Origin: Forficula auricularia
Taxonomy: Eukaryota; Arthropoda; Insecta; Dermaptera; Forficulidae
Length of the DNA: 64,000 bases
Direction of reading: 5' to 3'
Assembly: GCA_024734495.1 (NCBI GenBank)
Contig: JALMQS010000887.1
Coordinates: 2,203,986-2,267,985 of the forward strand
Position numbers and translations under genes: made by a program. The notes under the pieces are model-generated. The model was given only the letters and a program-made list of their open reading frames with translations, was not told the origin of the DNA and did no database searches. Shown in pieces: positions 8,446-63,115 of the stretch; position 1 is the stretch's first letter; each line of letters starts with the position of its first letter.

Positions 8446-8498
8446 GGTGCTGAAGAAGGACTGTTCCGTCCGAAACCTTTGCAGCGCAAACGTACACC
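8446..8498 (+). ncRNA. Hammerhead ribozyme motif with all three stems visible
   Basis: Order seen: stem I 5' strand GGTG (8446-8449), core CTGAAGA (8450-8456), one extra A, stem II GGAC/GTCC with loop TGTTCC (8458-8471), GAAA (8472-8475), stem III hairpin with TTTGC/GCAAA around loop AGC, closing A-U at 15.1-16.1, H17 = A (8494), stem I 3' strand CACC (8495-8498). Predicted self-cleavage is between 8494 and 8495. This matches the CUGANGA ... GAAA ... UH consensus apart from the extra base after A9 and a C-C mismatch in stem III. It is the only copy here with a long closed stem III. Related motifs are known from Penelope-like retroelements. Confidence 0.8.
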
Positions 8499-8519
8499 AT
8501 ATTAAATACATAAAAAAAC

Positions 8520-10270
8520 TACACCAAATAGTTTTCTTCTAACCTAACATCTGTTATAAATTTTTCCGAAACACCTCAAATTACACACAAACTACAATTA
8601 TATACAAAACGGAAACCTGGCTTTAGGAACAGTGTGGACCTTCTATGAGTCTCCAATTACTATTTCAATAATTGTATTTGAATTAAATATAATTTCGTCG
8701 CCAGGACAATTTGTACAATTGCCTGTTATCAAAATATTTAATTTCTTAGGGTTGTTTTCGAAATATTAGCGAAAACAACTTTTTTTTCAATTTTTAAAAT
8801 TTAATTAATTAATGATCTTTATTATCCAATATAAAAAAAATACAACATGTTTTACAATTATAAAAAAACTTCGACCTCGAGGCCCGAAAGTCTCACCATC
8901 GAATGTCCATTATTTTTATTTTATTATACATTATTCTCACTCCTTATTATGGTAAGGGAAAAAATTGATAAAAAAAACCCCATATACTTTATTTTTAACA
9001 TAAAAAAAACAAAAAAAAAAACAAAAAAAAACAAAAAAAAACAAAATGAATGATGATGAAATGAATATCACTAAATGAGAAATGAAGTGTCACATCCGGT
9101 TTAGTTCGTTAATTAGAGGGTTGAGACTTGATTGTGCATTATTTTAGAATTTTTTAACACTATTTTCTAGGTTTTCTTTTAGAGAAGTCATGTTTAGCCT
9201 GATTCTTATTATATGGTTGTTGATTCCTGGAGGAGGAATGGTCATTTTCTTAATGTTTTTGACTGGACCCTTTCCAAATCGTTGAGCCTGGTTTTGGAGG
9301 CGAAGGGGAGCCATGCAGGGGCAGCGTATCCCATGACTGGCCGAACAACCATTTTGTATAGAGTCAACTTTTCATTCAGAGGAAGCAGGCTGCCAGGCCT
9401 AATCAAAAGGCCAAATGATTTTTGCTGCCAGGATCAATTTTTAAAAAAATTTCTATCGATAAATGGAGAATTTCTCCCGAAAAGTCTAGTTTCAAAATAA
9501 ACGTTCCGAGATAGAAAATTTGTGTATGATAGTGCAGCAAGGTCTGAGATCTCCCAGAATGATGAATAATTTAAATTAAAATAATTAATAAACATAAGAC
9601 GAAGGTATTTTAGTCTGAATGAATAAACAAAACAAAAGAGAAACAGAGAGTGGTTCAAGATAAGCTAAGGGGACAAACAAAGAAGGGGACCCTTAAGGAA
9701 TTTTGCCATCTGAGAGGCAACTAACTTAGAAGTCAGCAAGAAATTAAATCTGTAATTGCTCATGATAAAATCATAATCTCATTTGATTCTGTGTGTGAGT
9801 AAAAATTATAAAGTTAATCGATAGTTTAATTAAAAATATTAAAGGTTTATTTAAAAATAAATATTAAATAATTAAAGGACGGAATAACCAATCGACTTGA
9901 TTGGGGAATAATGGAATTGAAATAATTATCGGAAAAGAGGTTTTTTATCTAATTAGATTTTTCTTCTTATTAAAAACAAGGACTATAGATGAATAAGGAC
10001 ACTCGATGGTGGAGAAGTAATCTCCGGAATCGAAGCAAAAAATACAATGTATACATTAATTAATGTAAAAAAATTGGTTTAATAAAATTTATAAAAAAAA
10101 AAAAAATATTTAATAATTAAAAAGTTCAAGCAGAAACCAATGATTATAAAGTATCTATTCACTTAAAAAAAATTTCACTTTTGGCTATTTATGTTTTTAC
10201 TAGTAAAAAGTCGATTAATTTTTTTACTTTAACTTATAATACACAATATTCTTCCAAAACTTGAGTGATT
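8520..10270. other. AT-rich stretch without a recognised gene
   Basis: Low-complexity A/T with a (C-A-rich) homopolymer block near 9000-9045. A 95-codon open frame at 9213-9500 shows no recognised domain, has no visible splice context and is not called. Nothing else recognised. Confidence 0.5.
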
Positions 10271-10365
10271 TATGTAGAATATAATTTTTATTTTTTTCGG
10301 TTTATTTAGTCACACAAATTTAACAAATTGAGTAATTTCAGTTAATTAACACTATTTATTTCATA

Positions 10366-10420
10366 GATTTACTAGACAGTTTCGGTCAGCACTGGTAGAC
10401 CATTTTAAGTAGTACTCATT
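10366..10420 (-). ncRNA. Degenerate hammerhead-like motif (left arm)
   Basis: Read on the minus strand, stem II GGTC/GACC and GAAAC are intact. The core that should read CTGAAGA is CTTAAAA, so activity is unlikely. Sister of the better copy at 11485-11535. Confidence 0.5.
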
Positions 10421-10423
10421 ATA

Positions 10424-11302
10424 TTGAGCGCGTGCGAAGTTTGTGAGTAAAAGTCACACAGCGATTAGACAAACAAAAATCTTTATTCAATCAATGATAT
10501 ATTCTCCATCGTTTTCTATAATCTTTTTCCAACGTTCTGGCAGCAGACGGATGCCTCGATCATAAAAACTGCGCGGTTTAGATTCGAAGCCGTTTTTTAA
10601 GACCTTCAAAGAGACAAAGTTTTTTCCATTTAAATAATTTTGCAATGAACGGAACAAGTGATAGTCAGATGGTGCGATATCAGGAGAATACGGTGGATGC
10701 GTTAGGGCATCCCATTTCAGGCTCTTCAGCTTGCTCAGCGTCTTTTTCGAAACGTGTGGTCTGGCGTTGTCCTGATGAAAGATGACTCCCTTGCGATTTG
10801 ACAAAATCGGACGTTTCTTTTTGATTTCTCGATTCAAATTGGTTAATTGGCGACAGTACTTGTCCGAATCAATCGTTTCGCCAGCAGGGAGAAGCTCAAA
10901 ATAGATTATGCCCTTGCAATCCCACCAAACTGAGAGCATCTCCTTCATCGACTTCAAGGTTAAATTCTCCGCGCCGAAATTTAGCAAACCATTTTTCCAA
11001 AGTTCGTTTAGCTGGTGCTTGATCCTGATAAACATCTTGAATGTTTTTCGCGGCTGCGGCAACGTTTATTCCCTTCCGAAACTCGTAAAGCATAACATGC
11101 CGTAAATGCACTTTATCGATATTCATTTTTAAAGTGATATTTATCGAAGCAGTTTGTATGAAAACAAATGATTTTTTTAAATAAAGCTGAAGACGTCACC
11201 TTTCCAAGGATATATAATATGTAGGAGTAGGCATTAATGACAACACGTTACGACGCTCATAACTCCATCTATTAAAACTCCGCACGAACTTTTGCACGCA
11301 CC
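10424..11302 (-). mobile_element. Internally deleted mariner transposon
   Basis: The right terminus read inward is GGTGCGTGCAAAAGTTCGTG and the left terminus is GCGCGTGCGAAGTTTGTG, mariner-like inverted repeats flanked by TA. The element is about 880 bp, against about 1.3 kb for a full mariner. It lies inside the left arm of a hammerhead-bearing palindrome: the arm sequence resumes right after it (TATTGTAAAATG), so the mariner is the younger insertion. Confidence 0.88.
10487..11126 (-). pseudogene. Mariner transposase pseudogene, first catalytic Asp region deleted
   Basis: Minus strand. The N-terminal frame from the ATG at 11126 begins MNIDKVHLRHVMLYEFRKG and carries the helix-turn-helix part, ending near GEFNLEV. 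The C-terminal frame, ending at 10487, has KEMLSVWWDCKGIIYFELLP, the second catalytic Asp in HQDNARPH, the third in SPDIAPSDYHLF (the mariner D34D pattern), and a normal C-terminus (LPERWKKIIENDGEYI). About 130 residues, including the first catalytic Asp, are missing, and the two halves are in different frames, joined near 10935-10965. The DNA-cutting transposase would be inactive. Full-length mariner transposases are about 345 residues. Identification is firm at family level; the subfamily is not determined. Confidence 0.92.
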
Positions 11303-11484
11303 TATTATATTGTAAAATGTTCAATGTTTCTTTGAGGAAAAGATGTTGGAAACCAAATTTTTTTATAAGATTCTTCCAAAACTTAAGTGATTTATGTAGA
11401 AATTCAATTTTATGAATTTTACGGTTTATTTAGTCACATAACATCTTTTTCTCAAAGAAATATGGACATTTTACAATATATGAT

Positions 11485-11535
11485 GAGTACTACTGAAGAT
11501 GGTCTACCAGTGGTGACCGAAATGTCTAGCAAATC
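11485..11535 (+). ncRNA. Hammerhead-like motif (right arm, CTGAAGA/GGTC family)
   Basis: Core CTGAAGA (11493-11499), extra T, stem II GGTC/GACC (11501-11504, 11515-11518), GAAA (11519-11522), then TGTC. Stem III has lost one base compared with sister copies (CTGT) and stem I is only partly paired. Probably a decayed member. Confidence 0.6.
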
Positions 11536-11688
11536 TATGAAATACATAGTGTTAATTAACTGAAATAATTACTCTATTTGTTTAATTTGTGTGACTAAAT
11601 AAACCCTAAAATGTATAAAATTATAATAGACAATATTATATTAGATGCAGGAGGAGGTATCAGCCAAAGATGGAATCACTGAGTTCAA

Positions 11689-11760
11689 TAAAACACCTTT
11701 AATAAAACGTTTCGGCCTGAATTTATTTGGCCATCTTCAGTTAATTAGGAGTTCTAGTAA
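11689..11760 (-). ncRNA. Hammerhead-like motif, GGCC stem II family
   Basis: Minus strand: CTGAAGA, extra T, stem II GGCC/GGCC around an 11-nt A/T-rich loop, GAAA, palindromic stem III ACGT, H17 = T. Stem I pairs only with mismatches and a bulge. Core and stem II are complete. Single copy with no inverted partner in the window. Confidence 0.62.
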
Positions 11761-11829
11761 TTAAATAAAAAACACATAATTTTATAATTAATAATAATAA
11801 TAATAATAAACTGTGACGGATCGTTGCTA

Positions 11830-13210: not shown

Positions 13211-13224
13211 GACATGACCCTCCT

Positions 13225-17816: not shown

Positions 17817-17877
17817 TATTTATATTATTCACTGTTACATCACTCATTCACTCGTATCAATATTAAATTTAATAGAA

Positions 17878-18950
17878 GGAATCGCAGGGAATTGGATAAA
17901 TTAAAACAGAGAGATTTAATTAAGTGAGCCAGACGTTTTGTCAATTTATTTGGACTTCCTCAGTGGCTCATTTTATCACTCTTTGTCAAAAAGAGTTTTT
18001 TCTAAAAGTCAAAACATCATTAATCTTTTTTTAACAGATTCATGGCTCACAATTACCTCGGAAACGACTTTTGATTAAACTAAAATTTTTCGTTGTTTCG
18101 TCGTTTTTGACCAAGAGTGATAAAAAAAAATTTTTTAAGAAAAAAATAAAACCGACTTCAAAAAAATTAAATGCAACAAATAAAATACACTAAAAGGTAT
18201 AAAATAATTATTATCTTATTTAGTTACAACATAAACTACGAAATATTAACATGACATTACTTTTTGAAGTCGGTGCCAAACATATAGCTTTTATGAATCG
18301 CACTCGACGGATCTTACTTAGTACGTTTGGTGGGTACGCTCGCTTATAGGTATAGTTTGTTTGGCACCGACTTCAAAAAGTAATTTCATGTTAATATTTC
18401 GTCGTTTAGTTGTAACTAAATAAGATAATAATTATTTTATACCTTTTAGTGTATTTTATTTGTTGCATTTAATTTTTTGAAGTCGGTTTTATTTTTTTCT
18501 TAAAAATTATTTTTATTTTTCTCTTTTTAGTGATGTTATTAATAGTGATCATATCATCAGAACTTGACCAAATTAATAGTAGTGCCATCCCTAAGATACC
18601 CCCTTTCCAATAAAAAAAGAATCATCGAAATCGGTTCATAAACAAAGAAGTTAGGCCTGAACAAACCTAACAAAAAAGGTCTAATACCTATGAAAAAAAT
18701 GGGACCAATCGGACGGTAGACTGAACCCAATGCAAATTTTTTTTTCAAAATCGGTTCACAATTGGCGGAGATATGAGGTAACATAGGCACAAAAAAAAAA
18801 AAAAAAATTCAGTTGAGAACCTCCTCCTTTTTTGAAGTCGGTTAATAAGCCACGGAGAAAGTCAAAATAAATTGACAAAACGTCTGGCCCACTTAATAAA
18901 AGCTCTGTGTTTTAATTTATCCAATTCCCTGCGATTCTCTATATTAAATT
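17878..18950. mobile_element. Hammerhead-family palindrome split by a GAAGTCGGT element
   Basis: Outer arms share AATTGGATAAATTAAAAC / TTTAATTTATCCAATT and the GTGGGCCAGACGTTT segment. The same family is at 59560-60395 and 62765-63165. The inner part is interrupted at about 18120-18843 by another repeat. The hammerhead-like motifs are decayed here: left (minus, 17923-17970) has AAAA for GAAA, right (plus, 18843-18895) has CGGAGAA for CTGAGGA. Confidence 0.75.
18120..18843 (-). mobile_element. GAAGTCGGT element, copy 1
   Basis: Right terminus (minus start) AACCGACTTCAAAAAAGGAG at 18843 inward; body with conserved ACCGATTTTG, CAATCGGACGG-type and GAAATCGGTTCATAAACAAA motifs; then a palindromic block (about 18152-18495) holding further GAAGTCGGT motifs around a central CGACGGATCTTACTTAGTAC segment. 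Copies at 28769-29490, 44030-44410 and 53214-54180. No coding sequence. Such repeats are widespread in insects; the class is not clear to me. Confidence 0.78.
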
Positions 18951-24600: not shown

Positions 24601-24737
24601 AGATGTGTAGGTAATATAAATTCTTTTAAAAATAATTTATAATTCGGAAAAAATAATGCTTACAAGCAATTATAATAATTAGAAATAACAAACTAGAGTA
24701 AAAAAGAAAACAATTAAACAACGTGATAAATCATACG

Positions 24738-24789
24738 ACCAATCGCAACGTTTCGATAATTTATTGTACCTTCATCAGGCTCTTGATCA
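24738..24789 (-). ncRNA. Hammerhead ribozyme motif, left arm
   Basis: Minus strand: stem I GATCAAGAGC paired with GCGATTGGTC (tandem G-A mismatches inside), core CTGATGA, extra A, stem II GGTA/TATC (G-C, G-U, U-A, A-U), GAAA, palindromic ACGT stem III, H17 = T. The stem II bases differ from the right arm but still pair. Confidence 0.8.
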
Positions 24790-24873
24790 AATTATTTCCA
24801 AACACTTTGTTATTCAATTTTGTCTTGCCATTTTGAATACAAAATTGAATAACACAGTGTTTGAAAATAATTT

Positions 24874-24925
24874 GATCAAGAGCCTGATGAAGCTACAATA
24901 AATTAGCGAAACGTTGCGATTGGTC
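24874..24925 (+). ncRNA. Hammerhead ribozyme motif, right arm
   Basis: Stem I GATCAAGAGC (24874-24883) pairs with GCGATTGGTC (24916-24925). Core CTGATGA (24884-24890), extra A (24891), stem II GCTA/TAGC (24892-24895, 24904-24907), GAAA (24908-24911), then CGT and U17 (24915). Cleavage is predicted at 24915/24916. Stem III (ACGT) is too short to close alone and is self-complementary, as in hammerheads that act as dimers. Confidence 0.82.
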
Positions 24926-25490
24926 GTATGATTTATCACGTTGTTTAATTGTTTTATTTTCATATCTAACACTGATTATGGAACTGAGCAATAATAATAT
25001 GTAGCTTTTATAAGGACCTTGTATAACTCTTGACACGAACAAGTCTTGAAAAAGTTTTCCCTTTTTCCTCTATTTAGAGCCTAGACGAAAAAAACTCAGA
25101 GCAAAGATTTAGATTTAAGAAATGAGTCTGAGTTTTTAAGCAACACAGTCAGCATCCGTTTGTATTTGTATTTGTTCTTAAGGCCCTCCCAATGATTAAT
25201 CATCAAATAAGTTCCTGTTTGATCACTCCTACGTCTAATACTAATAATAATTGAGCCGGGTAGTAAACAAGGATATTTCAAATCAGGGCCATTCATTCAG
25301 ACACAACTGGAGTAGATATAGAATTGCAAAGAAGAAAGGAAGCGTTATCGCTCAAGATCGGAGCGAACCAGGTGGTTTAATCATTCGGTTCACTTATTCT
25401 TATACATCAACGAGGATCAGTATTCTGTCATGTCAATTTCAAATAGATAATCTTGACACTATTATGGAAAATATTTATTAAACTTATATT

Positions 25491-27500: not shown

Positions 27501-28690
27501 AAAAAGGAAATCAATGAATCATTTGAAATATTAATATATTTCTTTCTTTATTATTAATCAGATATCACTGGCTATTTGAAGTCCACGTTGACTTAAAGTC
27601 AAAAATAACGATCTTATCTCTAAGATTCCGACTCGCACTTGCCCAGGGGATTTTCTGACTATCAGTATTTTTGAATCTGAAGTTCTGAAGCAATGAGTAG
27701 GTAAATCCGAAAATAAATTCCCTTCTTTGTTTTCAAAATAAGAACATTTTTAGTAGCAGAACCCACTTTTTTCTACCTTTTAAAGACTTTGGCTTAAAGG
27801 ATAAAACTCAATTCCTTGTGTCCGAGAAGATTTTAAAAATAGCAAGACAAACAAAATAGCGATTGATATAACCAGGGCCCCCCCCCCCCAATTTATTAGG
27901 GATAGATCGTAAGACTGCATAGGCGAAAAGGAAGTATCATTCGGGTTGAGTATGTACTGGTGTTACTAAGGGATTAGCAGGAATGAAATTATCAGGGGGA
28001 TTTTTGCTCACTTGAAGTTTAAGGGGCGAAGGCCCGAAGGTGGTTTACAAGACCATTATTTTAACTTAAATTACTTAAACAAGCTTAATGTTTACTCAAC
28101 TAACGGTTTTGGGATTGGTAAGTTGAGGAGGTCTAGTAGGGACAATGATGGTGGCTTCCTAACGTAAACATTTATTAACCACTTTGTTGAGCTTGAAGTT
28201 TACAAAAACAGCCAGACCACGTCTACAAAATGTCAATACCAAGCGGCTGCCTCAAATCCAAAATGATGGATTAGTCTAAAATGCCCCAAAATAGTTCGGG
28301 TTAAACATACTTCGAGAAAGGTAGTCCCTACAATCGTGGATAAGCAGATGGAAATATTACGTTTCATTTTTGTAGTTTTGACCATGGGCTATATTAAAGC
28401 GACCAAATGAATAAATTTTAAAGAATTAAAAAAAAACAAACTATTTTACTCTAGAGTAAAGTATTTTAAAATATAATTTTACTTAAAAACTTTATATAAG
28501 CTTTTTTTGTGTGTCTCAAGATTCATAATTAGAATATTAAATTTCATCAAACTTGGTCAAGTCATACTGAGAATAAAGTACTAATGTTTGTGGGCTGATA
28601 TGTACCAAAAACTAATCAGCGCTTTATTTTGTTAAAATAATGGTAGGTTTTCAATTTAATTTCAATCGGTTGAACGGTGTGGAACATAAA
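27500..28690. repeat. Second locus of the 11830-12780 repeat
   Basis: Its ends (about 27520-27620 and 28390-28690) match the earlier locus. The 750 bp between them (with a C run near 27878) have no partner in the window and no recognised gene. Confidence 0.6.
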
Positions 28691-32930: not shown

Positions 32931-33461
32931 GAACACCCACTCCGATTTTCGGAAATTATTTTTCATATCGAGGAATATAATAGTAAATGATAATTAATAA
33001 AATAATTTATAATCATTTACGAAAGAACCAACTCACTAAATTTTGGGCTCATTAGCATTTAGTCATAAATCTCATTTTAAATATGGGGACTCTTCTAGCA
33101 CAAATAGCTTTCTAGTATGTTTATTTGAAAATTTTAGATTTTAAATTAATTTTTGAATTCCTAGGTATTTATTTAACGCCTAAGCTAAGCAATTAGTGAC
33201 CTCCATTGGATCTCTTTGGACAATCAGAGAGATCACGGCGTCGCACATTGGGACGAGTAGAATCTATATAGAAAACTCGTGACCAAAATTTGAAATTTCT
33301 ATAACGACTTTAAAATGTTATACAAACTTGCTTTTTTGGACTTTAAAGTATTTCATACTCAGTTTGCGAGCGATTTCAAAAGATTTTACTAATAACATTT
33401 TAATATTGAAGGAGACAATAAAAGAGTGTGTCTTCTGCTGGAATTATAAATTTGATTTATA

Positions 33462-33512
33462 ACGAGACTATAGTTTCGAGGGTTTTGCCCTCTTCATCAA
33501 GTCTATTACAAT
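33462..33512 (-). ncRNA. Hammerhead-like motif, left arm
   Basis: Minus strand: CTTGATGA (one T more than the right arm's CTGATGA), stem II GAGGG/CCCTC, GAAA, ACTATAGT, C17. The inserted T probably weakens the core. Confidence 0.6.
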
Positions 33513-33670
33513 TGATTCACAGGAATTAATGTATGAATGGAAGTGAGATTTACACGTGTCTGGGCAAATTATGATTTTCAATTATGAAACAAGTATAAAC
33601 GGAAAATCATAATTTGCCCAGACACTTGTAAAACACACTTTCCATTCATACATTAATTCCTGTGAATCAA

Positions 33671-33725
33671 TTGTAATAGACTGATGAAGAGGGCAAAAAT
33701 CCTCGAAACTATAGTCTCGGTATAA
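33671..33725 (+). ncRNA. Hammerhead ribozyme motif, right arm
   Basis: Core CTGATGA (33681-33687), extra A, stem II GAGG/CCTC, GAAA (33705-33708), self-complementary 8-nt stem III ACTATAGT, C17 (33716), then TC pairing with GA before the core. A longer palindromic stem III than the ACGT families. Confidence 0.75.
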
Positions 33726-34424
33726 ATAAAATTTATAATTCCAGCAGAAGACACACTCTTTATTGTCTCCTTCAATATATAAAAATTCTGCTACCCTCGG
33801 CAAAAAACCTTCAATTTAACATTTTAATAAATCTGTTCAAAAGGTGAGCACTTAAATAGGTAATATGAAGATTGAAGATAATTAGATGTTTTTAAATCTT
33901 TTGTTACTCAATTCTAATGGTGTTCTTTTGTAAATATTATATAGTAAATGCTCTATTTCCAGAAGATTAAAAAAAATATATAATATAAATATTTTCAGAT
34001 AATCAGGTAGTTTATTTCCGGATTTACCTTTTACATCTCGATAAATTTTCACAAATACAACAATTAAAAAAATGTACCGAATTGACTTTACATAAATTGT
34101 TGTAAGGTACCTAGATGTGAAAGAAATTCCCAAAAATCTCATCCGTCCACGTCCGACTCGAAAGTATATTCATATTTGAGCAAGCGGCTCCAAATTTTGG
34201 GATGTTTTAAAACTTTTGAGTGGCTTCTTAAAATTTTTTAATCGAGCTTATTTTTGGTGAGCATTTTAAAAACATGTTAAATTATAATATTTTCAAGGGA
34301 GATAAAAAAATAAAGAATTATTCTTTTTTTTGGGCCACCTTAATTTATAGTACTAATAGGTATAGTTCAAATTAAGGATTCACTTTATTTGGACTCCAGA
34401 AGTAGAGTTTAATATTATAAGTAG

Positions 34425-34935: not shown

Positions 34936-35279
34936 AAAGTTACTGTTCGCTAAGATGGGAACGTTACGTGTGCTAAATATGATTATTTTATGATCACTCC
35001 TAAATAAGTGACCCATGTCCAGAAATCTACCCATTTCGGCTCACTGTGCGTCGTCGCGGTCGTCGTTTAACGCTTTATAACAGTAGATTTCTCAGTCTTA
35101 TATTTAAGAATCACAAATGTTTCAAACTTTGCAACCCTTTGATTATAAAATCTGTAAAAATTCACGTAAATAGCTCATTGTGAGTATTATTGAGAGAAAT
35201 TGTCCTTTGTCACTATAAAATATTTATTTAGAGAAAGTGGTGTAGGTTTTAGGTGAAACATGATATTAATTAATAAAGT

Positions 35280-35450
35280 AAAGGGTGTGTAGTTTCACAG
35301 TGAATGAAATAAAACTCAAAGAGGTTTATACAAACCCAATATATTTCGGATTATTAGTCCATCATTAGGAGTTTACAGATAACTATATTGGATTTGTATA
35401 AACCTCTTTGAGTTTTATTTCATTCACTGTGAAACTAGACCCTTTACTTT
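35280..35450. mobile_element. Palindromic element with one hammerhead-like motif
   Basis: Arms GTAGTTTCACAGTGAATGAA and TTCATTCACTGTGAAACTAG, with GTTTATACAAACCCAATATA and its inverse inside. Confidence 0.75.
35330..35376 (-). ncRNA. Hammerhead-like motif with CTAATGA core
   Basis: Minus strand: stem I GTAAACTC/GGGTTTGT pairs well (with G-U), core CTAATGA (G5 changed to A), extra T, stem II GGA/TCC, GAAA, palindromic ATATAT stem III, H17 = T. The helices argue for a real ancestor; the G5 change argues against activity. Confidence 0.5.
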
Positions 35451-36292
35451 ATTAAATAACATATTTAATTTGGATGATGACAGTTAATAAAATTCACAAC
35501 TCTAATTCCACTAGCATTTGTTGTTTTGAATAACTTGACTTCTTTAGTCTTTTATCTAATCATTCACTGCATCATATTCTGTAAGAAGAGAGACTAAAAG
35601 TAATCGAGTTTCATTCACACTTTTCAACACCCACTATCTCCTGTGATGTAAGCCAAAGGATTGCTAGCAACGCAGCAAATAAATATTAACCTAGGTCAGA
35701 TATCACTGCCAGAACAAGAGATTAATATAATAAAAATAAAGTATTTTTCAATGTGTGATGCAATCAAATGAATAATTAAATTAAATAGTCATCAGCTACT
35801 CTTGGCAAAATTCTATTTTAATTTTATTATAAATAAATATCAAAGTTGATATCCCTAACGAGAGAAGAAGCGTCCGATGGTATAATAAATAGGTCTATAA
35901 ACAAATCACTACCTAGTATTTTCTATAGAATATATATATTTAATTATTATATCCTTCGGTTCTTAAAAGTAAATAAATTTCTTTTATTATTAATAAAATT
36001 TATTTTTATTACATAGAAATAGAAATATTTCACCTTCTTTATAAGATATAATGATAGTAAATTATATTTATATAAAAATCATTAATATTAAAATAATCGA
36101 TAAAATGTGACCAAAGTAATACTAGTGAGTGCATGAATTTACTGGCAAATAGAATTTTGTGTCAACGGTGTTTGAGTGAAAATGGTTAACGAAGAGGTAG
36201 ACCACACAACTATTTGGCTAAATTGACCAGATGTTTTACAATGGAATATGGGACATTAATCTGTATCTATATAATTATTTTTTTATGATATA

Positions 36293-37476
36293 CAGGGTGT
36301 CCCGTATTACAAAGATAAACCGTGAACAATGGATAGGGCAATTTACGATGGTCCTGAAATTAAAAAGTTTTTTAATAAAAGTCTCATTGTTTTCGGCTTA
36401 TGAGCATTTTTTTGAAAATAGTGAAAATCGCTACCCTGCCTTAAATATCGAGATGCTATGGCTACAAATTTGCATATTTTATTACTATAATTTTTGTTAC
36501 GCAATCCTGAATAATCCTGCTATTTGCCAAAATTCAAAATAAAACAATAAATATTATACTTTTGGAGAAAAAAAAATATTTTTGCCAGACTTTTGTTTTA
36601 AAAAATTTTCATCAGCAAATTTTGAATCATCTTTAGTGTAAAAAAAAGTCTAGTAAACTAGCCTGACAAGATATTGAAAAAATTAGCCTAATTTGTCAAG
36701 ATTTCAAAATAGTACAACACTTTGTACTTACTTCTTATAAAAAAATATTGATATTTTTTTGACAAAATTAGCTAATTTAAAAACATATTTTGATAGTGTT
36801 TTTTTATTTAATATGTTAATCAATTATGTCGCATCTTAATTGAACTAATCTTTGGCTATTATAGACATTAATATTATAATACCTATTAATAATATGCCCA
36901 TTAATATCCAAAGATTATTTCAATTAAGATGCGACATAATTGATTAAAATATTAAATAAAAAAACATTATCAAAATATGTTTTTAAATTAGCTAATTTTG
37001 CCAAAAAAATATCAATATTTTTTTCTAAAAAAGTAAGTACAAAGTGCTCTACCATTTTGAAATCTTGTCAAAATAGGCCAATTTTTTAAATAACTATCCA
37101 GGCTAGTTTACTAGACTTTTTTACATTAAAACATGATTCAAAGTTAGCTGATGAAAAATTTTTAAAACATAAGTAAGTCCGGCAAAAATATTTTTTTTCA
37201 CCAAAAGTATAGTACTTATGGTTTTATTTTGAATTCTGGTCAATAGCAGGATTATTCAGGATTGAGTAAAAAAATTAGAATTCCTAATAAAATATGTAAA
37301 TTTGTAGCCACAGCATCTTGATATTTAAGGCAGAGGTAGCGATTTTCACCAATTTCAAAAAAATGCCTATAAGACGAAAAATATGAGACTTTTATTTAAA
37401 AAAAATTATGTCCAGGACCGTCGTAAATTGCCCTATCCCCTGTTTACGGTTTATCGTTGTGATACGGGACGCCCTG
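36293..37476. mobile_element. 1.18-kb foldback element with TA target duplication
   Basis: Ends CAGGGTGTCCCGTATTACAA and its near inverse (TTGTGATACGGGACGCCCTG), flanked by TA at 36291-36292 and 37477-37478. The arms are about 550 bp each and match over nearly all their length; the centre is near 36885. Non-coding. The 103-codon open frame at its left arm is a chance frame. Confidence 0.9.
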
Positions 37477-37478
37477 TA

Positions 37479-38041
37479 TATATATTGTAAGCTATAATTG
37501 AATAAGAGCAGTCATAGATAAAATTAAAACATCAACATTACAATTAAAGATATAATCACTCGTACTATTCCGATGAAATATGAACTTTTTCAATAATTCA
37601 TAATTTTGTGATATGTTGTTACAAAATTCCTCACAAGTATTGGAGTAATTGCATTTTAATTTCAATATAGCCTTCAACGTTTCCAAGCACAGTCCTGTCA
37701 TTTAATAGCAATATCTCGAATAATAGGATCCCCTGATATTTAGACAACTATATTAGCAGATCAGATAAGGGTATGACTACGTTGAAAAAAGCCATTTCCC
37801 CATTTTATTTTTGGCTATATTCAAATTTTAGTATAAAACCATTTTTAAAGGATTTCTATTTCACGTATTCTCATATAAACGAAAATATTTTATAAACTGA
37901 TATATTGTATCAACTAATTAATTGATTTTAATTAGGTTGCCATGGCAACAATAATGAAATTATTATTATTGATATAGAAAATAAACAAAGATGTTCTTCG
38001 TTCTAACTAATATATATGTAGTTCATAATTTATTTATAATT
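37479..38041. other. Unassigned stretch
   Basis: A 69-codon minus-strand open frame (37492-37701) has no recognised motif or splice signals. No repeat partner seen. Confidence 0.4.
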
Positions 38042-38518
38042 CAGTGGAACGCGAAAACGCTTAACATGGAAAATCGGTTAACACGAAATAATAATGCAGT
38101 TCCGACAAAATACTAGGTATTTTCATACTTTTTTCTTTTAACACGAAATAAAAATCGCTTAACACGAAAAGATTTCGCTTCTCGGGATGAACAAAATATG
38201 TTATTTTCCAAAATTTCAATAAATATTTATTTGTTTTTATAAAATAATTTAAAATTACATACACATATTAAAGTTTATTTATATTCATTTTATTGTACCT
38301 ACATAAGTATGTACAAAATGTAAATACGTAATTTCAAATGTAGTGTATCTAATGACCTACCCTAATAAATGTAATTTTGGTATATATATATATTTTTTTT
38401 AATTATATATTTTAAGTGACTTAATTTTTTTAAATTATTTTTAAATTGAAAGGTTTTTTTAGTCACAAACCAATAAAAGACAATAATTTCAATTAATTAT
38501 TACTATTTATTTTATTGA

Positions 38519-38567
38519 TTCACCAAACAGTTTCGGTCACCACTGGTTGACCATCTTCAGTAGTGAA
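38519..38567 (-). ncRNA. Hammerhead ribozyme motif
   Basis: Minus strand: stem I TTCACTA/TGGTGAA (7 pairs), core CTGAAGA, extra T, stem II GGTC/GACC, GAAA, 5-nt ACTGT stem III (self-complementary except a central T-T), H17 = T. Confidence 0.76.
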
Positions 38568-38621
38568 TTTCGTTCAATTTTGTTTATGTATACAAAGTGA
38601 CAATTTCCAGATCTTGAACGA

Positions 38622-38672
38622 AATTTACTACTGAAGATGGTCAACCAGTGGGGACCGAAACTATTAGGTGAA
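38622..38672 (+). ncRNA. Hammerhead motif, right arm partner
   Basis: Core CTGAAGA (38631-38637), extra T, stem II GGTC/GACC, GAAA (38657-38660), then CTATT and stem I strand AGGTGAA pairing with TTTACTA. Stem III is decayed relative to the left arm. Confidence 0.66.
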
Positions 38673-38802
38673 TCAATAAAATAAATAATAATAATTAACT
38701 GAAATAAGATTGGAGTAATTTTTGGAGACGGACTGATAAGTGAATTAAGTGGGGAGGCAGTCCAAAAAAGAAGAAGATAATTTACACTATCTTTTTATTA
38801 AT

Positions 38803-38846
38803 AAAACCGACGTTTCGGAGGCTATTCCCTCCTTCTTCAGGGTTTT
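38803..38846 (-). ncRNA. Hammerhead ribozyme motif (best ACGT dimer type)
   Basis: Minus strand: stem I AAAACC/GGTTTT perfect (6 bp), core CTGAAGA, extra A, stem II GGAGG/CCTCC perfect, loop GAATAG, GAAA, ACGT stem III, C17. Cleavage is predicted between C17 (38809) and G1.1 (38808). Confidence 0.82.
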
Positions 38847-38861
38847 GTTCACTGACTTTTC

Positions 38862-38905
38862 AAAACTCTGAAGAAGGATGGAATAGCCTCCGAAACGTCG
38901 GTTTA
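38862..38905 (+). ncRNA. Hammerhead motif, partner arm
   Basis: CTGAAGA (38868-38874), extra A, stem II reduced to GGA/TCC by a T substitution, GAAA, ACGT, C17, stem I AAACT/GGTTT with one wobble. Slightly decayed compared with the left arm. Confidence 0.75.
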
Positions 38906-39139
38906 TAATAAAAAGATAGTGTAAATTATCCTCTTCTTTTTTGGACTGCCTCATCGATATCCACTTAATTAACTGAAATTATTGTCTTTTATTAGTTTGT
39001 GACTAAAAAAACCTTTCAAATTAAAAATAATATTTTTTTTGTATGCAATGCAATATGTTTAACACGAAATTCTCTTATCACGAAGAAATGTTTCGGTTCC
39101 CTCAGTTTCGTGTTAAGCGATTTTCACAGTATATTGAAT

Positions 39140-41945: not shown

Positions 41946-41949
41946 TATA

Positions 41950-42462
41950 CAGGGTGGGGCATAAAGATATACACATTTTGAAGAGGTATAAAAAATGAAA
42001 AAATTAACTAGAAAAAAAAACTGAATATATTTTTGAAAAGAACACAAAATAATTTTTTTTTTAAATATATTTTTAACATTATATCAGACGAAAGGGGGGA
42101 TCAAAAATGAAAATTATAGTCCTTTCGACCAAACTCAACCAAATTTTGTATACATAGTTTGGTCGAAATTGTTAGAATTTTCATTCTTGACCCCTCCCCA
42201 TTTTGGGTAGTTAGTTTTTGAATTTCTAGCCTTCTGGAGGTCCACAGAGAATTTGTATACAAAATTTGGTTGAGTTTGGTCGAAAGGACTAGAATTTTCA
42301 TTTTTGACCCCCCCCCCCCCTTTCGTCTGATATAATGTTTGGAACACATTAAAAAAAAAATTATTTTATGTTCTTTTCAAAAATATATTCAGTTTTTTTC
42401 TAGTTAAATTTTTCATTTTTTATACCTCTTCAAAATGTGGAAGAGCTTTATGCACCATCCTG
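41950..42462. mobile_element. TA-flanked foldback MITE, copy B
   Basis: Ends CAGGGTGGGGCATAAAG and CTTTATGCACCATCCTG, flanked by TA. Arms with CACATTTTGAAGAGGTATAA; the centre near 42160 contains inverted element-X motifs (CCAAACTCAACCAAATTTTG). Intact counterpart of copy A at 19832-20416. Confidence 0.87.
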
Positions 42463-42789
42463 TATAACATTAAACCATGGCGTTTAGGTCTACAAAAAAG
42501 CCCTAATAAGTGAACATCAAAAAAATTATATTTTTCAAAATATTAGTTTTTTTGTAAAAATGTCTGTTAGAACGTTAGTGCGTGGGTGCGTTACCAAATT
42601 TTTGTGTACGCTCAAAAACTAGTGTGAACGAAATTTCATATATAGTTTTGGTGCATTGAGATTAAGAGCTGATTAGATTTTATTTAAATTCGGACCCAAA
42701 ATTAAGGGGAAGTGGGTTAAAAATTAAGATTTTAAGATTAGGCGGTTAGTTTTTGCACTTTTAGTCTTCTGGTGTGGTATGTACATGTT

Positions 42790-46796: not shown

Positions 46797-46850
46797 GTAC
46801 CTACTACTGAAGAAGATCAACCAGAGACGACCGAAACTGTCTGGTAAATC
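46797..46850 (+). ncRNA. Hammerhead-like motif (CTGAAGA/GGTC family)
   Basis: Core CTGAAGA (46807-46813), extra A, stem II GATC/GACC with one mismatch, GAAA, CTGTC, GGTAAATC. It lies in a single arm (about 46620-46920) of the family at 38450. Confidence 0.58.
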
Positions 46851-46969
46851 GATCAAATAAATAATGATAATCGATTAAAATTACTATTTATTTATTTTAT
46901 GTGACTTTTATTTTATAATTTTTATTATTGAACCCACAAAATCACCCGAATGGGGTCAAAATATCAAAT

Positions 46970-49659: not shown

Positions 49660-50425
49660 TAAAAATAAATAAATTGCTTGATATTACTCAAGGGTGATAA
49701 GGGCGGTACCGGAGGGTCATCCGAGCCCAACCCCCCCGATCTTAAACAAATGGAATAAAATGAAGATTTGATGACTTCAACATCTGACTCTGTCCAAGAT
49801 AAGTGTTTCTACAACAAATAATATCCCGGCGAATCCTGAGGAAGATTTAAAATAAATCGAAACATTGACTTCAGAGATATTTTTCTTTATTCTGGCTGCC
49901 TGAACCCTTTAATCTGATATAATTTAATTACAGCCACATTAATTTCACTTAATCAATGAATATCACTTTCATTCATAAAAAATAAATCAATGAGGTTGTC
50001 CTCTGCTTGATGCGAATAAACACACAGCGTCGAATCGTTACATTTTCAAATTGTCTCGATGAACGCCTAGGAGGTAGGCAAGCGGCAATAATATTGAATT
50101 CAGTTGAATTTATTTTTTCTTTTACTCTATGTGTTTAATAATGGCTGAATGACGAAGGTAGTGGCGGGATTTCAGAAGAAAATGTTTATTAATTTCATGA
50201 TCATCGATGTTTTATTTTATTCGTTTCAATTTAATGACGTATAACAAAATATTACAAGCAAGAATAGCACAAACTTCTTAAAATTTAAAATTTTTTAAAT
50301 GAGATCAGTCACCTCTTTGCGTTGTCCCAGATCGATATCAAATTTTGTACTCATTATTTTCTTACCAAGTGTCAAAATTTATTTATCCAAATCTAACATT
50401 AACATTATCTAGAGAATTAAGTATA
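49660..50425. other. AT-rich stretch with one hammerhead-like motif
   Basis: No gene. 49830-49885 (plus) has CTGAGGA (49836-49842), extra A, stem II GATTT/AAATC, GAAAC, H17 = T, with partial stem I (TC/GA plus mismatches) and no palindromic partner. Confidence 0.5.
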
Positions 50426-50429
50426 TTAG

Positions 50430-50825
50430 CAGGTTTTTAGACGGGAAAGTAGCAAATCAAACAATTCTCATCGATTATAGCGACGTTTCGCCAATTTTAT
50501 TTCGGCTTCATCAGGCGTCTCAATGATTATAATTTAATTATAAGATATAACAGATATGCAAATATTTCTGAATTAACTCAATTGTTCCAGATTCTTTTTA
50601 TAGTATATTTTGACTAATTCTTTTGTCTTTAGCTCTCTATATATGGCCTGAACAATTATTTAATTTATATATAAGAAAGCTTTAAATGACTGGATTATTA
50701 TAATATTATATTTTTAAAGCTTTCTTATATATAAATTAAATAATTGTTCAGGCCATATATAGAGAGCCAATGACAAAAGAATTAGTCAATACTGTAAAAA
50801 GAATCAGGGACAATTGAGTATTTTT
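50430..50825. mobile_element. Hammerhead palindrome truncated by a LINE
   Basis: Arms: CAATTGTTCCAGATTCTTTT (left) and AAAAGAATCAGGGACAATTG (right), with GAACAATTATTTAATTTATA around the centre (about 50690). The right arm stops at 50820 where the LINE 3' end begins, so the second hammerhead is missing. Confidence 0.82.
50475..50520 (-). ncRNA. Hammerhead ribozyme motif
   Basis: Minus strand: stem I GC/GC (short), core CTGATGA, extra A, stem II GCC/GGC around an 11-nt loop, GAAA, ACGT stem III, C17. Confidence 0.68.
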
Positions 50826-57501: not shown

Positions 57502-58319
57502 AGTACCTGGAACCACCGAGCGATGCTCGGTAACTATTTACTTCAGTAAAAACCTATATATTATATATTTTATTTTTTATTTAAATTATTTTTAAATTGA
57601 AAGGTTTTTTTAGTCACAAGCTAATAAAATTATTTTCTTTTATTAGTTTGTGACTAAAAAAACCTTTCAATTTAAAAATTAAGTCACTGAAAAGATTTTT
57701 ATTTAAAATTCTGATAAAAAGGTCGATTTGTATTTAAGCTTTTTGTGTTTAATGTCCCGAAATAAAAAAATTCTCATTTGGGTTCACGGGTCAAATTTTG
57801 AAAAAAATGGAAAAACGATTTCGAGATATATCATCAATTAATTTATGTTCCAAAATTGAATGCTAAAACTTTAAAAACAGAACACTAAAACTTTCAATAT
57901 ATAATAAATAATAATTATGAGAAGCCAATTAAATAAAAAAACAAATGTATTTTTAAAATTTCCTAATTTTAATATATAATAATATTTGTTATAACCTATT
58001 AGTGGGTTTTAAAATTAAAAAACCAATTAATTAAACAATAATTGAAAAAAATGTAAACAAACGATTTTATTGAGATTTTCATCTATCAATAATTACTTTA
58101 ATTAAGAAAAAATCAATTAAGATGAAATTTGTCGAGGTCCAGACCTAGCCAGATCGTTTTCTCATCCTCAAAACTTGTTAATAGAATTGGTTTCATCAAA
58201 ATCGGTAGGGCCGTTTTCAAAATAGAACTAAGATACAAATATACAAACAAATATATATATATACATATATATATATAAATAAATATATATACATTTTTTG
58301 CTCGTTTAATAAGAGTAGA
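57502..58319 (-). mobile_element. Non-autonomous Helitron, copy B
   Basis: 5' end (minus) TCTACTCTTATTAAACGAGC at 58319, 3' hairpin ACCGAGCATCGCTCGGT near 57514-57532. A short palindrome at 57588-57678 (AGGTTTTTTTAGTCACAA) is the outer arm pair of the 38450 family, so this copy carries an insertion. It appears inserted into a U3/A8-family hammerhead element, pieces of which flank it (57410-57500 and 58320-58400). Confidence 0.75.
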
Positions 58320-58924: not shown

Positions 58925-58927
58925 TTA

Positions 58928-59156: not shown

Positions 59157-59619
59157 TTATGCGTTATGCGTATTATTATTATTACTTTATTTCATGGGCT
59201 GTTCATAAATCTTGCATTTATATACGGATGGAAATTGGATCATTTTGAAATCAAAGTATATATCACAGGCCTCAGCAAGAGTACATTGTTCTCGAAAGTC
59301 ATATTCTCCATTTTTTACAACTAATGTACAGATACATTATGCGAATTATTGTATTTCTAAAAAAATGTGTTGTTTTTTAAATGACTTTGTGTGTGTGTAT
59401 ATTATATCTATGAATGTAATATGGCTAAGATCTTAGGCAGGTGCCCATCCCCATTTTCTTGTAGTATCGCCCCTCAGTTTCATGAAAAGTTACCCCCCCC
59501 CTTCCGTGTACATTGTATTTTATTCACTTCTAATGGATTAGATGAGGTTTTTATTATTATTACCGTAACAGGAATAGTAGGGAATAGAATAAAATTGAAA
59601 ACACAGAGTTTTTATTTAA

Positions 59620-59665
59620 TGGGCCAGACGTTTCGTCAATTTATTTTGACTTCCTCAATAGCCCA
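59620..59665 (-). ncRNA. Hammerhead-like motif, TTGAGGA core
   Basis: Minus strand: stem I TGGGCTA/TGGCCCA, core TTGAGGA (C3 changed to U), extra A, stem II GTC/GAC, GAAA, ACGT, C17. Confidence 0.62.
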
Positions 59666-59892
59666 TTTTATCACTCTTTGTCAACAAAACAATTTCACAA
59701 TAAAACAAAACATCATTAATCTTTCTTTAACAAATTGTTGGCTCAAATTAATTAACAATCTTAGAAGCGACTTTTCTTTAACAATTCCGCTTCCAAGATT
59801 GTTGATTAATTTGACCCAATAATTTGTTAAAGAAAGATTAATGATAATATTTGTTTTATAGTGAAATTGTTTTTTGACAAAGAGTGATAAAA

Positions 59893-59938
59893 TGGGCTAT
59901 TGAGGAAGTCAAAATAAATTGACGAAACGTCTGGCCCA
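59893..59938 (+). ncRNA. Hammerhead-like motif, partner arm
   Basis: Stem I TGGGCTA (59893-59899) with TGGCCCA (59932-59938); core TTGAGGA; stem II GTC/GAC; GAAA (59924-59927); C17 at 59931. The same C3U change is in both arms. Confidence 0.64.
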
Positions 59939-59945
59939 TTTACAT

Positions 59946-60358: not shown

Positions 60359-60399
60359 GATCTCTGTTTTTAATTTTATCTAATTCCCTACTATTCCTA

Positions 60400-61735
60400 T
60401 TACAAATTTACTATGGATACGAATGATACAACATTATTACGTATTAACTTTTATTTGAGTTATTAACTTGACCATTTTTATTTTTAGCGTATTTCTAATG
60501 CTAATTTTGAAACAATTTTTAACCCCCCCTCCCCAGAAATTTCAATGACGAACTCTGCGTCGAGTATGGTATATAATAAAAAAAATCATAATTTTTCTGG
60601 TAACTGGTCCAAATGAAAGAGATGATTGTGGAATATATAATACAAAAACACATAATCCATACTCCCTATCTTTCTTTTTAAAGAAATAAATGGAAAGGAA
60701 ATCTCCATTGAATCATCATCAGCTAATCACATTATCTAAAATGAAAATGTGACACTTCTTTTTCATTAAAGGCTACTTTTGAAATTTCTTTTAATCTTTT
60801 CATGTCCGATATGGTCAGTGAATAAATAAATAAATGTAGGTTACCGAGCGGTGGTTAGTAATAGTTTTTTTTTTTTAGAAATCGCTTCCGCACGCAGACA
60901 GACCTCTCCAGGTGGGTGGCAAGTGTCAATTGATCAATTGACCACCTGTTTGTTGTTTGTTCTGATTCAGAAGTCGCGACCAGCGATTACGACCCACCCG
61001 TGGAACAATTGGGCGGCCTTCGCTATTCAATTTTTTGGACATTTTTGTCATGGTATATTAAGACCGAATTGATTTTTAAGCAGGTTGTAGAGTCCATTTG
61101 AACTGGTTTGGCCTTCGATTTTAATGTGCAAACTGCGATCATCATAAATTCGTTTAAACACAAGTGTGTGTGTGTGTTGTTTTTCGCCCTACACACAATT
61201 TTTCATGCCAGTATCAATTATCCAATTTAATTATTTTATTTTTCGAAAAAAAAACATCAAAAACTCTCAATTGAAATATAAATAATAAAATTTATTTTGA
61301 AATTTCAAAAGTGAAAAATCTTACCTTTTACTAGAGGGAATAAATATTGGAAAGTTTTTTCTACTTCAAGCTTAGCAAGTCCAGAGAATAATGTCAATTT
61401 AAAATCGAAATTTTTAAATCTTATCAACGAACATATAGTAGTTAAAGGGAATGTCAGAAGAGCTGCCTCTCCATTGGGTATCAGGTTCAAGTGTCAGAAA
61501 CTGTTAACAATAGTCCGGATTTCGACACTTGGGTGCTATTTCTGAGAGGACAACTGTCCTTCTAACCATAAACTTGAATTTATATGATGTGAAATCGTTG
61601 TTAATCTTTGAAAATTTCAATTTTAAATCGGCAATTAAGATTTTTAAATATAAAATCATATATTTCGCTTTTTAAAAAATATTTTTTACTAAAATATACT
61701 GTTAAACATTTTGATGAAAAAAAGATGAATTTTAA
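60400..61735. other. Mostly unassigned; GT microsatellite
   Basis: 60885-61035 has no repeat partner and is less AT-rich than its surroundings; a T-run plus AG precedes it at about 60879 but no clear donor-bounded exon results. (GT)n near 61164-61177. 61440-61500 has a block (ATGTCAGAAGAGCTG) weakly repeated at 62420 and 62615. Confidence 0.4.
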
Positions 61736-61739
61736 ACAT

Positions 61740-61920
61740 TTATTATTATTAATGAAGCTGTTGAAGCTTCTATTTTTGTGATTGATTTGATTTAGAGTTG
61801 AAAATCACACATACTTAATTAGTTATAAATTATTTATTGAACACGAATAAATAATAAAACTACGACGTTTCGATCGACTTATTCTACGATCGTTCTCAAG
61901 TATAAGCACCCACTTTGATT
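61740..61920. mobile_element. Single arm of the U3/A8 hammerhead family
   Basis: AATGAAGCTGTTGAAGC, TTTGTGATTGATTTGATTT, TTTATTGAACACGAATAAAT then the hammerhead at 61861-61903. No inverted partner follows. Confidence 0.78.
61861..61903 (-). ncRNA. Hammerhead variant with U3/A8 core
   Basis: Minus strand: TAC, TTGAGAA, extra C, GATCG/CGATC with loop TAGAATAAGT, GAAA, ACGT, C17, GTA. Nearly identical to 32888-32930, with no loss in helices. Confidence 0.62.
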
Positions 61921-62760
61921 TTAGGTTAACTGATTTATTATTTATTAGTTATTTTTTTATTTCAATTTCAATAAAGATCCCCGTATGGAAATAAATAGAT
62001 TTTCGAAATATGTTTTTTATATATTTTTAGAAAATTTATTAAAAATATAAAATTTTTGTGTTAAATTTATAAAAAGTTTATGTTTTCTATATATTCTTAA
62101 AATATAATAATTTTTATGTCGCTCTAGTATAAATTTTTTTTATGTTTTAAGTATGTTTCAAAGATATGTTCTGAATGTGATATAAATTTTATATGTTTTA
62201 AAAATACCTATAATTATTATGTTCTCAGAATATAAACAAATCTATTCTATTTATTTGCATGAGGGTCAAAAATTCTTATTGTAGAAACTAGCAGAGTTGT
62301 TGGTTTTTATATATGTAATAGAAAATCAAAAGGCAAGAAATCATAACAACTTATGGTTACTTATGGTACTGTTGGTGTCATCTATTAAATTCGATGGAAT
62401 TGAATATTTTTTATTATATGTCAGAGGGGTTGTTTTTCACCCTCGGTAATCGAATCCTGAGTGCCAGTAACAGCAATCCGGGCTACCTGGCTCACTTTAT
62501 GATTTCTTGTAAATTTGAATCTATTACCATCGGCAAATTAATATCTTTCATAGAAAATCAAAAAATTTTGTATTCTGCTGAAGATTATCTAAGAAAAAGA
62601 TGAATTTCTTTACATGTCAGAAGTGCTATTGCTGTCGCCTTCTTAGTACCTAATCGATCCAAAGTGACATAAATAGAGTTTCCATTCTGACATATACTAG
62701 TAAAGCAACGTATCTAACATCTCATTTAATGTTACATCATTCGTATCCATAGTAAATTTA
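61921..62760. other. Unassigned AT-rich stretch
   Basis: A 69-codon plus-strand frame (62394-62603) has no recognised motif. No gene called. Confidence 0.4.
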
Positions 62761-62775
62761 TAAAAGAAGTCGTAA

Positions 62776-62822
62776 GTGGGCCGGACGTTTCGTCAATTTA
62801 TTTTGACTTCCTCAGTGGCTCA
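62776..62822 (-). ncRNA. Hammerhead ribozyme motif, left arm
   Basis: Minus strand: stem I TGAGCC(A)/(C)GGCCCA with one A-C, core CTGAGGA, extra A, stem II GTC/GAC, GAAA, ACGT, C17. Confidence 0.74.
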
Positions 62823-63067
62823 TTTTATCACTCTTTGTCAAAAACAGTTTTTCTATAAGACAAAACATCATTAATCTTTCTTTAGCATATTCTTGGCTCA
62901 CAATATCACTAATCTTGGAAACGACATTTTCGGCAACTATTGGACACAAATTGTTAAAGAAAAAGTCGTTTCTCAAGATTATATTATTGTGAGCCAAGAA
63001 TATGCTAAAGAAAGATTAATGATGTTTTTGTCTTATAGAAAAACTGTTTTTGACAAAAAGTGATAAA

Positions 63068-63115
63068 ATGAGTCACTGAGGAAGTCAAAATAAATTGACG
63101 AAACGTCTGGCCCAC
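63068..63115 (+). ncRNA. Hammerhead ribozyme motif, right arm
   Basis: Stem I TGAGTCA/TGGCCCA (with G-U and A-C), core CTGAGGA (63076-63082), extra A, stem II GTC/GAC around a 10-nt loop, GAAA (63100-63103), ACGT, C17 (63107). Confidence 0.75.

Follow-up and report, generated by a model that had tools for sequence, protein, structure and literature searches.

The 64,000-nucleotide stretch of Forficula auricularia contig JALMQS010000887.1 analysed here (the window) contains 22 hammerhead-like sites in 10 families (A–J), comprising 20 tabulated sites and two decayed family A copies recovered with a covariance model (Table 1). These are probably minimal type I, dimer-acting hammerheads of the kind associated with Penelope-like elements (PLEs), located mostly in the pseudo-LTRs (pLTRs) of short, ORF-less Penelope-like copies. 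This kind of ribozyme is already known, and the sites are additional PLE-type hammerheads, diverse within one place. CUGANGA and GAAA are both intact at 15 of the 22 sites, with the core damaged at 10409, 35368, 33500, 59900, 59658, 17963, and 18853. The first-pass annotation had counted more than 20 sites in at least nine families, a tally that holds, and the stems it quoted (e.g. AAAACC/GGTTTT and TTCACTA/TGGTGAA) were located in the sequence, the quoted pair GATCAAGAGC/GCGATTGGTC being matched at 8 of 10 positions.

Table 1. Elements, ribozymes, and flanking repeats of the ten families, in window coordinates.
Feature	Position (strand)	Remarks
A copy 1, element	17872–18942	oldest copy; unrelated palindrome nested inside
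A copy 1, decayed ribozymes	17922–17973 (-), 18843–18894 (+)	located by covariance model
A copy 1, flanking repeat	17860 and 18941	11 bp; left repeat a few bases off arm end
A copy 2, element	59566–59943	palindrome 59618–59940 plus left tail of ~50 nt
A copy 2, ribozymes	59617–59668 (-), 59890–59941 (+)	core UUGAGGA in both
A copy 3, element	62773–63167	palindrome 62773–63118 plus tail to about 63167; left boundary uncertain
A copy 3, ribozymes	62774–62825 (-), 63066–63117 (+)	
B, element split by mariner copy	10280–11625	ribozymes 10365–10419 (-, damaged core), 11483–11536 (+)
B, element split by element C	38434–39031	ribozymes 38516–38570 (-), 38621–38675 (+)
B, single ribozyme	46797–46851 (+)	
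C, element within B	38706–38966	ribozymes 38799–38850 (-), 38858–38909 (+)
C, flanking repeat	38693 and 38967	13 bp (14 bp counting one overlapping base)
D, palindrome	24702–24960	ribozymes 24737–24788 (-), 24874–24925 (+)
E, element	33406–33816	41-nt right tail; ribozymes 33456–33510 (-, damaged core), 33671–33726 (+)
E, stem III		self-complementary ACUAUAGU
E, flanking repeat	33393 and 33817	13 bp
F, palindrome	35263–35462	left-arm ribozyme relic 35328–35378 (-), core CUAAUGA; right arm without core
G, hammerhead	8440–8504 (+)	true stem III hairpin; outside palindromes
H, ribozyme	11696–11750 (-)	outside detected palindromes
I, ribozyme-like site, weak	49826–49876 (+)	ACAU replaces ACGU; model E 0.064; outside detected palindromes
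J, ribozyme, weak stem I	50472–50524 (-)	adjoins, but is not inside, palindrome 50576–50819

The ribozymes depart from the usual form at two points. One extra A or U precedes stem II, and stem III is mostly cut down to a loop-less self-complementary ACGU, this or another short run being found in all tabulated families except G, which alone has a long stem III hairpin (8450). The short stem III described in the first-pass annotation is in most families a loop-less, dimer-type self-complementary run and not a hairpin. Such a stem III has been reported for PLE hammerheads in the available parts of PMC6155905, PMC7761336, and PMC6466107. An Rfam scan of the window revealed no hammerhead with the gathering threshold, nor with the cutoff relaxed to E ≤ 10, probably because of this unusual form; a standard RNA-family scan of the window thus overlooks these densely placed PLE-type hammerheads. 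Matches to Rfam miRNA families on both palindrome strands fell below their own gathering scores and were rejected.

To set the motif against chance, 200 dinucleotide shuffles were made in 2-kb blocks. The combination of (C/U)UGANGA, stem II, and GAAA was observed 17 times against a shuffled mean of 0.685 (maximum 4). With stem III/H17 added there were 14 matches against a mean of 0.03, and with stem I also required 11 against none in any shuffle, some of the stem III alternatives having been picked after the sites were seen. When strands were swapped between the 10 families, stems I and II paired far better within families than across them. The observed pairing value was reached by 4 of 3,628,800 permutations for stem II and by 14 of 3,628,800 for stem I, where four families (B, E, F, and G) are favored because their stem III lengths were set by hand. 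The native strand was the best partner in nine of 10 families for stem II and in six of 10 for stem I, which is weak in family J and one family E copy. The covariation of stems I and II between families of dissimilar sequence, claimed in the first-pass annotation, is borne out by these permutations. In predicted single-strand folds the native stem I was present at only 12 of the 22 sites. A MAFFT alignment of 19 sites lost stem register and was left out of the pairing analysis.

A covariance model built from families A, C, and D, with the other families held out, recovered J (E = 8.5e-7), H (2.9e-5), and E (7.4e-4); I (0.064), B (0.25), and G (3.7) were not significant and F was absent from the matches, all of these E-values being rough. 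The covariance search that had been proposed for these sites was accordingly productive with the custom model but not with the Rfam models. Both stems were borne by seven of eight linear-core matches here versus one of 120 in IMG/VR stretches, so the latter were rejected as relatives and treated as chance; two of them (L001 and L016) have a strong stem II. Taken together, the motif excess over shuffles and the cross-family stem pairing support the original reading of the sites as hammerhead-type RNAs.

Six families (A–F) have a ribozyme within a palindrome. In five of these (A–E) the ribozymes are paired and face outward, F retaining one relic only, and families G–J are not in detected palindromes. 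The outer overhangs of the palindromes are unequal in E (0 and 41 nt), C (48 and 14), and A copy 2 (48 and 3); a one-sided tail is absent from D and F and uncertain in A copy 3. Flanking duplications of 11–14 bp were found in three of eight elements, namely E (13 bp), C (13–14 bp), and A copy 1 (11 bp), and not in A copies 2 and 3, B, D, or F. In a control, 18 of 3984 random pairs shared at least 11 bp, and the figure of 5e-6 is indicative only, because the element bounds were set after the flanking repeats had been seen. Among the 25 palindromes examined, one without a hammerhead (57588–57679) is AT-rich and has a 12-bp shared flanking word.

On this arrangement, each palindrome is probably a pair of pLTRs fused head to head, their 5' ends meeting in the middle and the ribozymes lying toward the outer 3' ends. 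Head-to-head inverted pLTRs are the arrangement of endonuclease-bearing PLEs, and solo pLTRs without further PLE sequence are also described, according to the available part of PMC3846280; the earlier view of palindromic, reverse transcriptase-less elements as out of the ordinary in a PLE setting is weakened by these inverted and solo pLTRs. The PLE context that had been suggested for the hammerheads gains support from the diminished stem III and the head-to-head outward pairs. Target-primed reverse transcription, initiated at an internal RNA site downstream of the ribozyme, probably made such palindromes; the PLE enzyme cuts and extends both strands, with an internal start of reverse transcription, in the portion of PMC11167929 available. 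Whether between two sense copies in one transcript or between two transcripts that meet, pairing of the self-complementary ACGU runs would complete stem III and permit cleavage after H17.

With four families placed outside palindromes and a PLE reverse transcriptase missing from the ORFs and motifs scanned, PLE parentage is an inference, as are dimeric cleavage and any life-cycle role. Neither a PLE reverse transcriptase nor a GIY-YIG domain was identified in the window when 10 of its 19 ORFs of at least 95 aa were compared with Pfam and a crude motif scan was made. The silence of Pfam is weak, because Pfam also missed a LINE-type ORF at 5792–6307. The named relatives of this ORF are in Diorhabda, Dendroctonus, and Diabrotica (beetles), with one in a moth, and its best match is 95% identical. 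In the open-access literature searched, nothing was found on PLE hammerheads in beetles or under "diminished stem III", nor any figure for hammerhead density per 55-kb stretch.

Chance, with AT-rich palindromic DNA raising the number of matches, would account for the many palindromes that yield hairpin-like matches and for the absence of an Rfam hammerhead, and single weak sites (I, J, and F) could be of this origin. The shuffles, the strand swapping, the held-out model search, and the IMG/VR control all argue against it, as does family G, which alone had no equal in 400 shuffles; chance has a negligible probability and is ruled out for the sites taken together, though not for each weak one. 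Another alternative is that the elements are DNA transposons of foldback or MITE type that carry the motif in their inverted repeats and whose palindromes were moved by a transposase, as might be suggested by the many window palindromes without a hammerhead (25 palindromes examined) and by the palindrome that the three family A copies have in common as a unit. The flanking repeats of DNA transposons are usually 2–11 bp, whereas those here are 11–14 bp. Moreover, E, C, and one A copy have one-sided tails, the ribozyme covaries across sequence-unrelated families, and the sole transposase found, that of mariner, by eye splits a B element rather than serving it, which makes this origin improbable.

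The elements could also be metazoan non-LTR retrozymes, small non-autonomous elements whose type I hammerheads process them into circular RNA. They are indeed short, AT-rich, and ORF-less with type I hammerheads, and insects are among the retrozyme hosts reported in the available text of PMC7229834. Retrozymes are, however, direct tandem repeats of ~150–450 bp, whereas the pairs here are inverted, self-comparison of the window revealed no direct tandem repetition of the motif, and stem III is minimal rather than canonical in most families; we regard this explanation as very improbable. On the preferred reading, as Penelope-like copies, an outward-pointing hammerhead pair can mark some palindromic orphan repeats as PLE debris.

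The hexamer AAUAAA lies in loop II in five of the 10 families, beginning 16–22 nt before the scissile bond, and 7–14 nt after it in three further families. A family being counted if any copy has the hexamer (four of five copies in B, one of two in E), AAUAAA is near the ribozyme in eight of 10 families. The exact loop-AAUAAA pattern occurs six times in the window; prokaryote contigs contain it once and IMG/VR not at all. The p-values for this regularity are indicative only, because the hexamer was spotted post hoc and the 10 families may share deep ancestry. It is possible, if rather unlikely, that loop II serves the element as its poly(A) signal, such that polyadenylation and self-cleavage compete over the same few bases in a switch choosing between messenger and transposition template. 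Self-cleavage would then remove or hide the poly(A) signal, giving RNA without a tail, and a poly(A) tail added close to the cut would cost stem I its 3' strand and inactivate the ribozyme. In the accessible part of PMC6155905 polyadenylation is mentioned solely for the Clec2 hammerhead, and the role of PLE hammerheads is called unknown in reviews, as relayed in part of PMC7761336. If the loop II hexamer is functional, this role becomes testable by RNA 3' end sequencing.

An extra core nucleotide, between A9 and stem II, was reportedly described for a viroid hammerhead by De la Pena and Flores in 2001; the families here share the one extra nucleotide, although that ribozyme belongs to a viroid and not a retroelement. 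Small PLE hammerhead variants are said to have been described by Cervera and de la Pena in 2014 and by Lunse, Weinberg and Breaker in 2017. As described in available parts of citing papers (PMC6155905; PMC7761336; PMC6466107), these variants resemble the present sites in type I topology and an intact core, in the reduced stem III and the dimeric action proposed for it, and in the link to pLTRs. The present set differs in its palindromic ORF-less copies and in having 10 families in one window, and perhaps also in the AAUAAA that five families carry in loop II. Thousands of minimal type I hammerheads outside recognizable PLEs are dispersed in many metazoan genomes, in the portion of PMC7761336 available. 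Metazoan retrozymes, too, are short and non-autonomous and carry type I hammerheads, but they are direct tandem repeats rather than inverted pairs, in the text available from PMC7229834. Penelope of the rotifer Adineta vaga shares the head-to-head inverted pLTRs, and its optional one-sided tail and short target duplications (8–10 bp there versus 11–14 bp here) have possible counterparts in three of the present elements each; it mostly keeps an ORF between the pLTRs, which the copies here lack, and the hammerhead is unmentioned in the available section of its text (PMC3846280).

In the parts of PMC11167929 available, the Anolis PLE hammerhead shows no cleavage without its protein, and its mutants leave in vitro insertion unaffected, with no reads ending at the cut site. 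The ORF of this element, Poseidon PAc, begins at stem II, whereas by eye no long frame runs through the motif here; the motif as a PAc-like ORF start was rejected, ATG frames ending by eye within ~13 codons in B, D, E, H, and J. The two systems are nevertheless alike in having a hammerhead with stems I and II in a pLTR and, as proposed here, reverse transcription begun inside the RNA (PMC11167929, in part).

The window holds 22 hammerhead sites, which separate by sequence into ten families (A–J); 20 were obtained from descriptor scans with hand-set registers, and a covariance model contributed two further decayed copies. A strict core search gave 17 matches, some lacking stems. With (C/U)UGANGA, a stem II with three or more Watson-Crick pairs, and GAAA required, 17 sites were found compared with a mean of 0.685 and a maximum of 4 in 200 block shuffles. 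Requiring stem III and H17, the residue preceding the predicted bond, left 14 sites versus 0.03, some stem III alternatives having been picked with the data already in view, and adding stem I left 11 versus 0. The family G type, with a true stem III hairpin, had no equal in 400 shuffles. Both stems accompanied 7 of 8 linear-core matches in the window versus 1 of 120 in IMG/VR stretches, whose base composition differs from that of the window; this single case, on contig L001, has a 4-bp stem II and a partial stem I. The first-pass annotation had described a swarm of more than twenty sites in at least nine families, which these counts, far above shuffle expectation, bear out. The set of sites is real, and its kind is already known.

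Covariation of stems I and II, also proposed from the first reading, was upheld by swapping strands across families. Stem II scored 3.68 of 4 within families and 1.70 when swapped, with 4 of 3,628,800 permutations reaching the observed value; stem I scored 4.49 of 7 versus 2.62 (14 of 3,628,800), a test that favours B, E, F, and G, where stem III lengths were set by hand. The native partner ranked best in nine of ten families for stem II and six of ten for stem I. Several pair types occur across the ten families at each of stem II positions 2–4; at position 1 every family has G-C. A covariance model based on eight A, C, and D sequences recovered held-out families J (E-value 8.5e-7), H (2.9e-5), and E (7.4e-4) at 35.1, 29.5, and 24.4 bits, above the maximum of 21.6 bits in the IMG/VR control (80 of the 120 stretches). 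Families I (0.064; 17.3 bits) and B (0.25; 15.1 bits) fell under that maximum, G had an E-value of 3.7, and F was unrecovered in this search of the window.

Each of the 20 tabulated sites has one additional nucleotide, A or U, separating A9 from stem II. Stem III consists in most families of a short loop-less run, commonly ACGU, which cannot self-close but can pair with the ACGU of a second copy; the run is ACUGU with decayed forms in B, ACAU in I, AUAUAU in F, and ACUAUAGU in E, which could alternatively fold into a hairpin of two pairs closing a UAUA loop. Such runs represent the diminished stem III of Penelope-like element (PLE) hammerheads, described in passages of PMC6155905, PMC7761336, and PMC6466107 as minimal versions without helix III that may work as dimers. 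Rfam models returned no hammerhead in the window in gathering-level or permissive searches, for which the diminished stem III is one likely cause. Of the 22 sites, 21 have the native stem II in their predicted single-strand folds, and 12 have the native stem I.

A regularity spotted post hoc is AAUAAA, the canonical poly(A) hexamer, which lies in loop II starting 13 nt after C3 in families A, D, H, and J and 15 nt after it in I, although the stems of these five differ. B, C, and E each have at least one copy with AAUAAA 7–14 nt past the predicted bond, G has AUUAAA 6 nt past it, and F has neither. The hexamer occurs between C3 and +60 in 8 of 10 families; it is present in the upstream 60 nt in 1 of 10, and its reverse complement lies between C3 and +60 in 4 of 10. 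The background rate is 3.7% per 16-nt stretch; among 16-nt G..C hairpins in the window the hexamer is present in 11 of 248, a count that includes some hammerhead sites. The exact loop pattern was found six times in the 64 kb, never in IMG/VR, and once in prokaryote genome contigs, collections that test chance only, because they are not animal genomes. Possible readings of the loop hexamer are a poly(A) signal within the ribozyme, a loop making a tertiary contact, and shared descent.

Features of the window and observations on them
Feature	Position	Strand	Observation
ORF	5792-6307		RT-bearing proteins and named beetle proteins among its relatives
Palindrome	8138-8305		Arms with long C/G runs, just upstream of site G; matches miRNA families below their gathering scores
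Family B element	10280-11625		Interrupted by mariner copy, apparently at TA (by eye)
Mariner transposase ORFs	10487-11062, 10896-11192	minus	PF01359 and HTH_48 domains
Loop II AAUAAA examples	24884-24912, 63076-63104
tRNA-model match	28016-28080		35.3 bits (permissive Rfam search); missing from gathering-level Rfam run and ARAGORN; possibly a tRNA-derived repeat
Family F	35263-35462		Second arm begins near predicted cleavage bond (by eye; single case)
Palindrome, 1.2 kb	36288-37481		No hammerhead; ends start ACAGGGTGTCCCG
Palindrome end	41946-42466		ACAGGGTG end, similar to that of 36288-37481

The window is AT-rich (GC 23–35% per 2-kb step), with abundant decayed mobile elements and many palindromes, 25 of which were taken up for flanking-repeat comparison. 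In families A–E paired ribozymes face outward from the palindrome centre, F has a single ribozyme relic in one arm, and G–J lie outside palindromes detected by self-comparison of the window. Hammerhead-bearing palindromes are 82–93% self-complementary over their length. The position of the second arm of F would fit 5' truncation of one template near the predicted cleavage bond. E, C, and the second A copy have outer overhangs of different length (0 and 41 nt, 48 and 14 nt, and 48 and 3 nt, respectively); those of D (3 and 0) and F (0 and 0) are near equal. Three of eight elements have flanking repeats: E (13 bp), C (13–14 bp), which is nested in a B element, and the first A copy (11 bp, lying a few bases away from the end of the arm). 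Among 3984 pairs of 40-nt stretches drawn at random, 18 shared a match of at least 11 bp; the other five elements match over 4–8 bp, within the chance range.

Pfam, applied to 10 of 19 ORFs of at least 95 aa, and a crude motif scan of the window detected no PLE ORF. Passages of PMC11167929 on an Anolis PLE report that its hammerhead requires protein for cleavage, is dispensable for insertion in vitro, and has no reads at the cut site; cleavage by the ribozymes here, and any role for them, are accordingly putative. The same passages describe reverse transcription that begins inside the RNA, with the enzyme cutting and extending both DNA strands; a one-sided tail would fit such a start. To the known hammerheads the present analysis adds ten families within 55 kb, a dimer-type stem III, the loop II hexamer as a testable lead, and a reading of the palindromes as pairs of PLE pseudo-LTRs (pLTRs). 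In the portion of PMC3846280 on rotifer Penelope elements, pLTRs of ∼200 bp are inverted head-to-head, with an optional tail of 31 bp on one side only and target duplications of 8–10 bp. The palindromes appear to resemble these elements in their paired inverted arms and, in some copies, perhaps in one-sided tails and flanking repeats.
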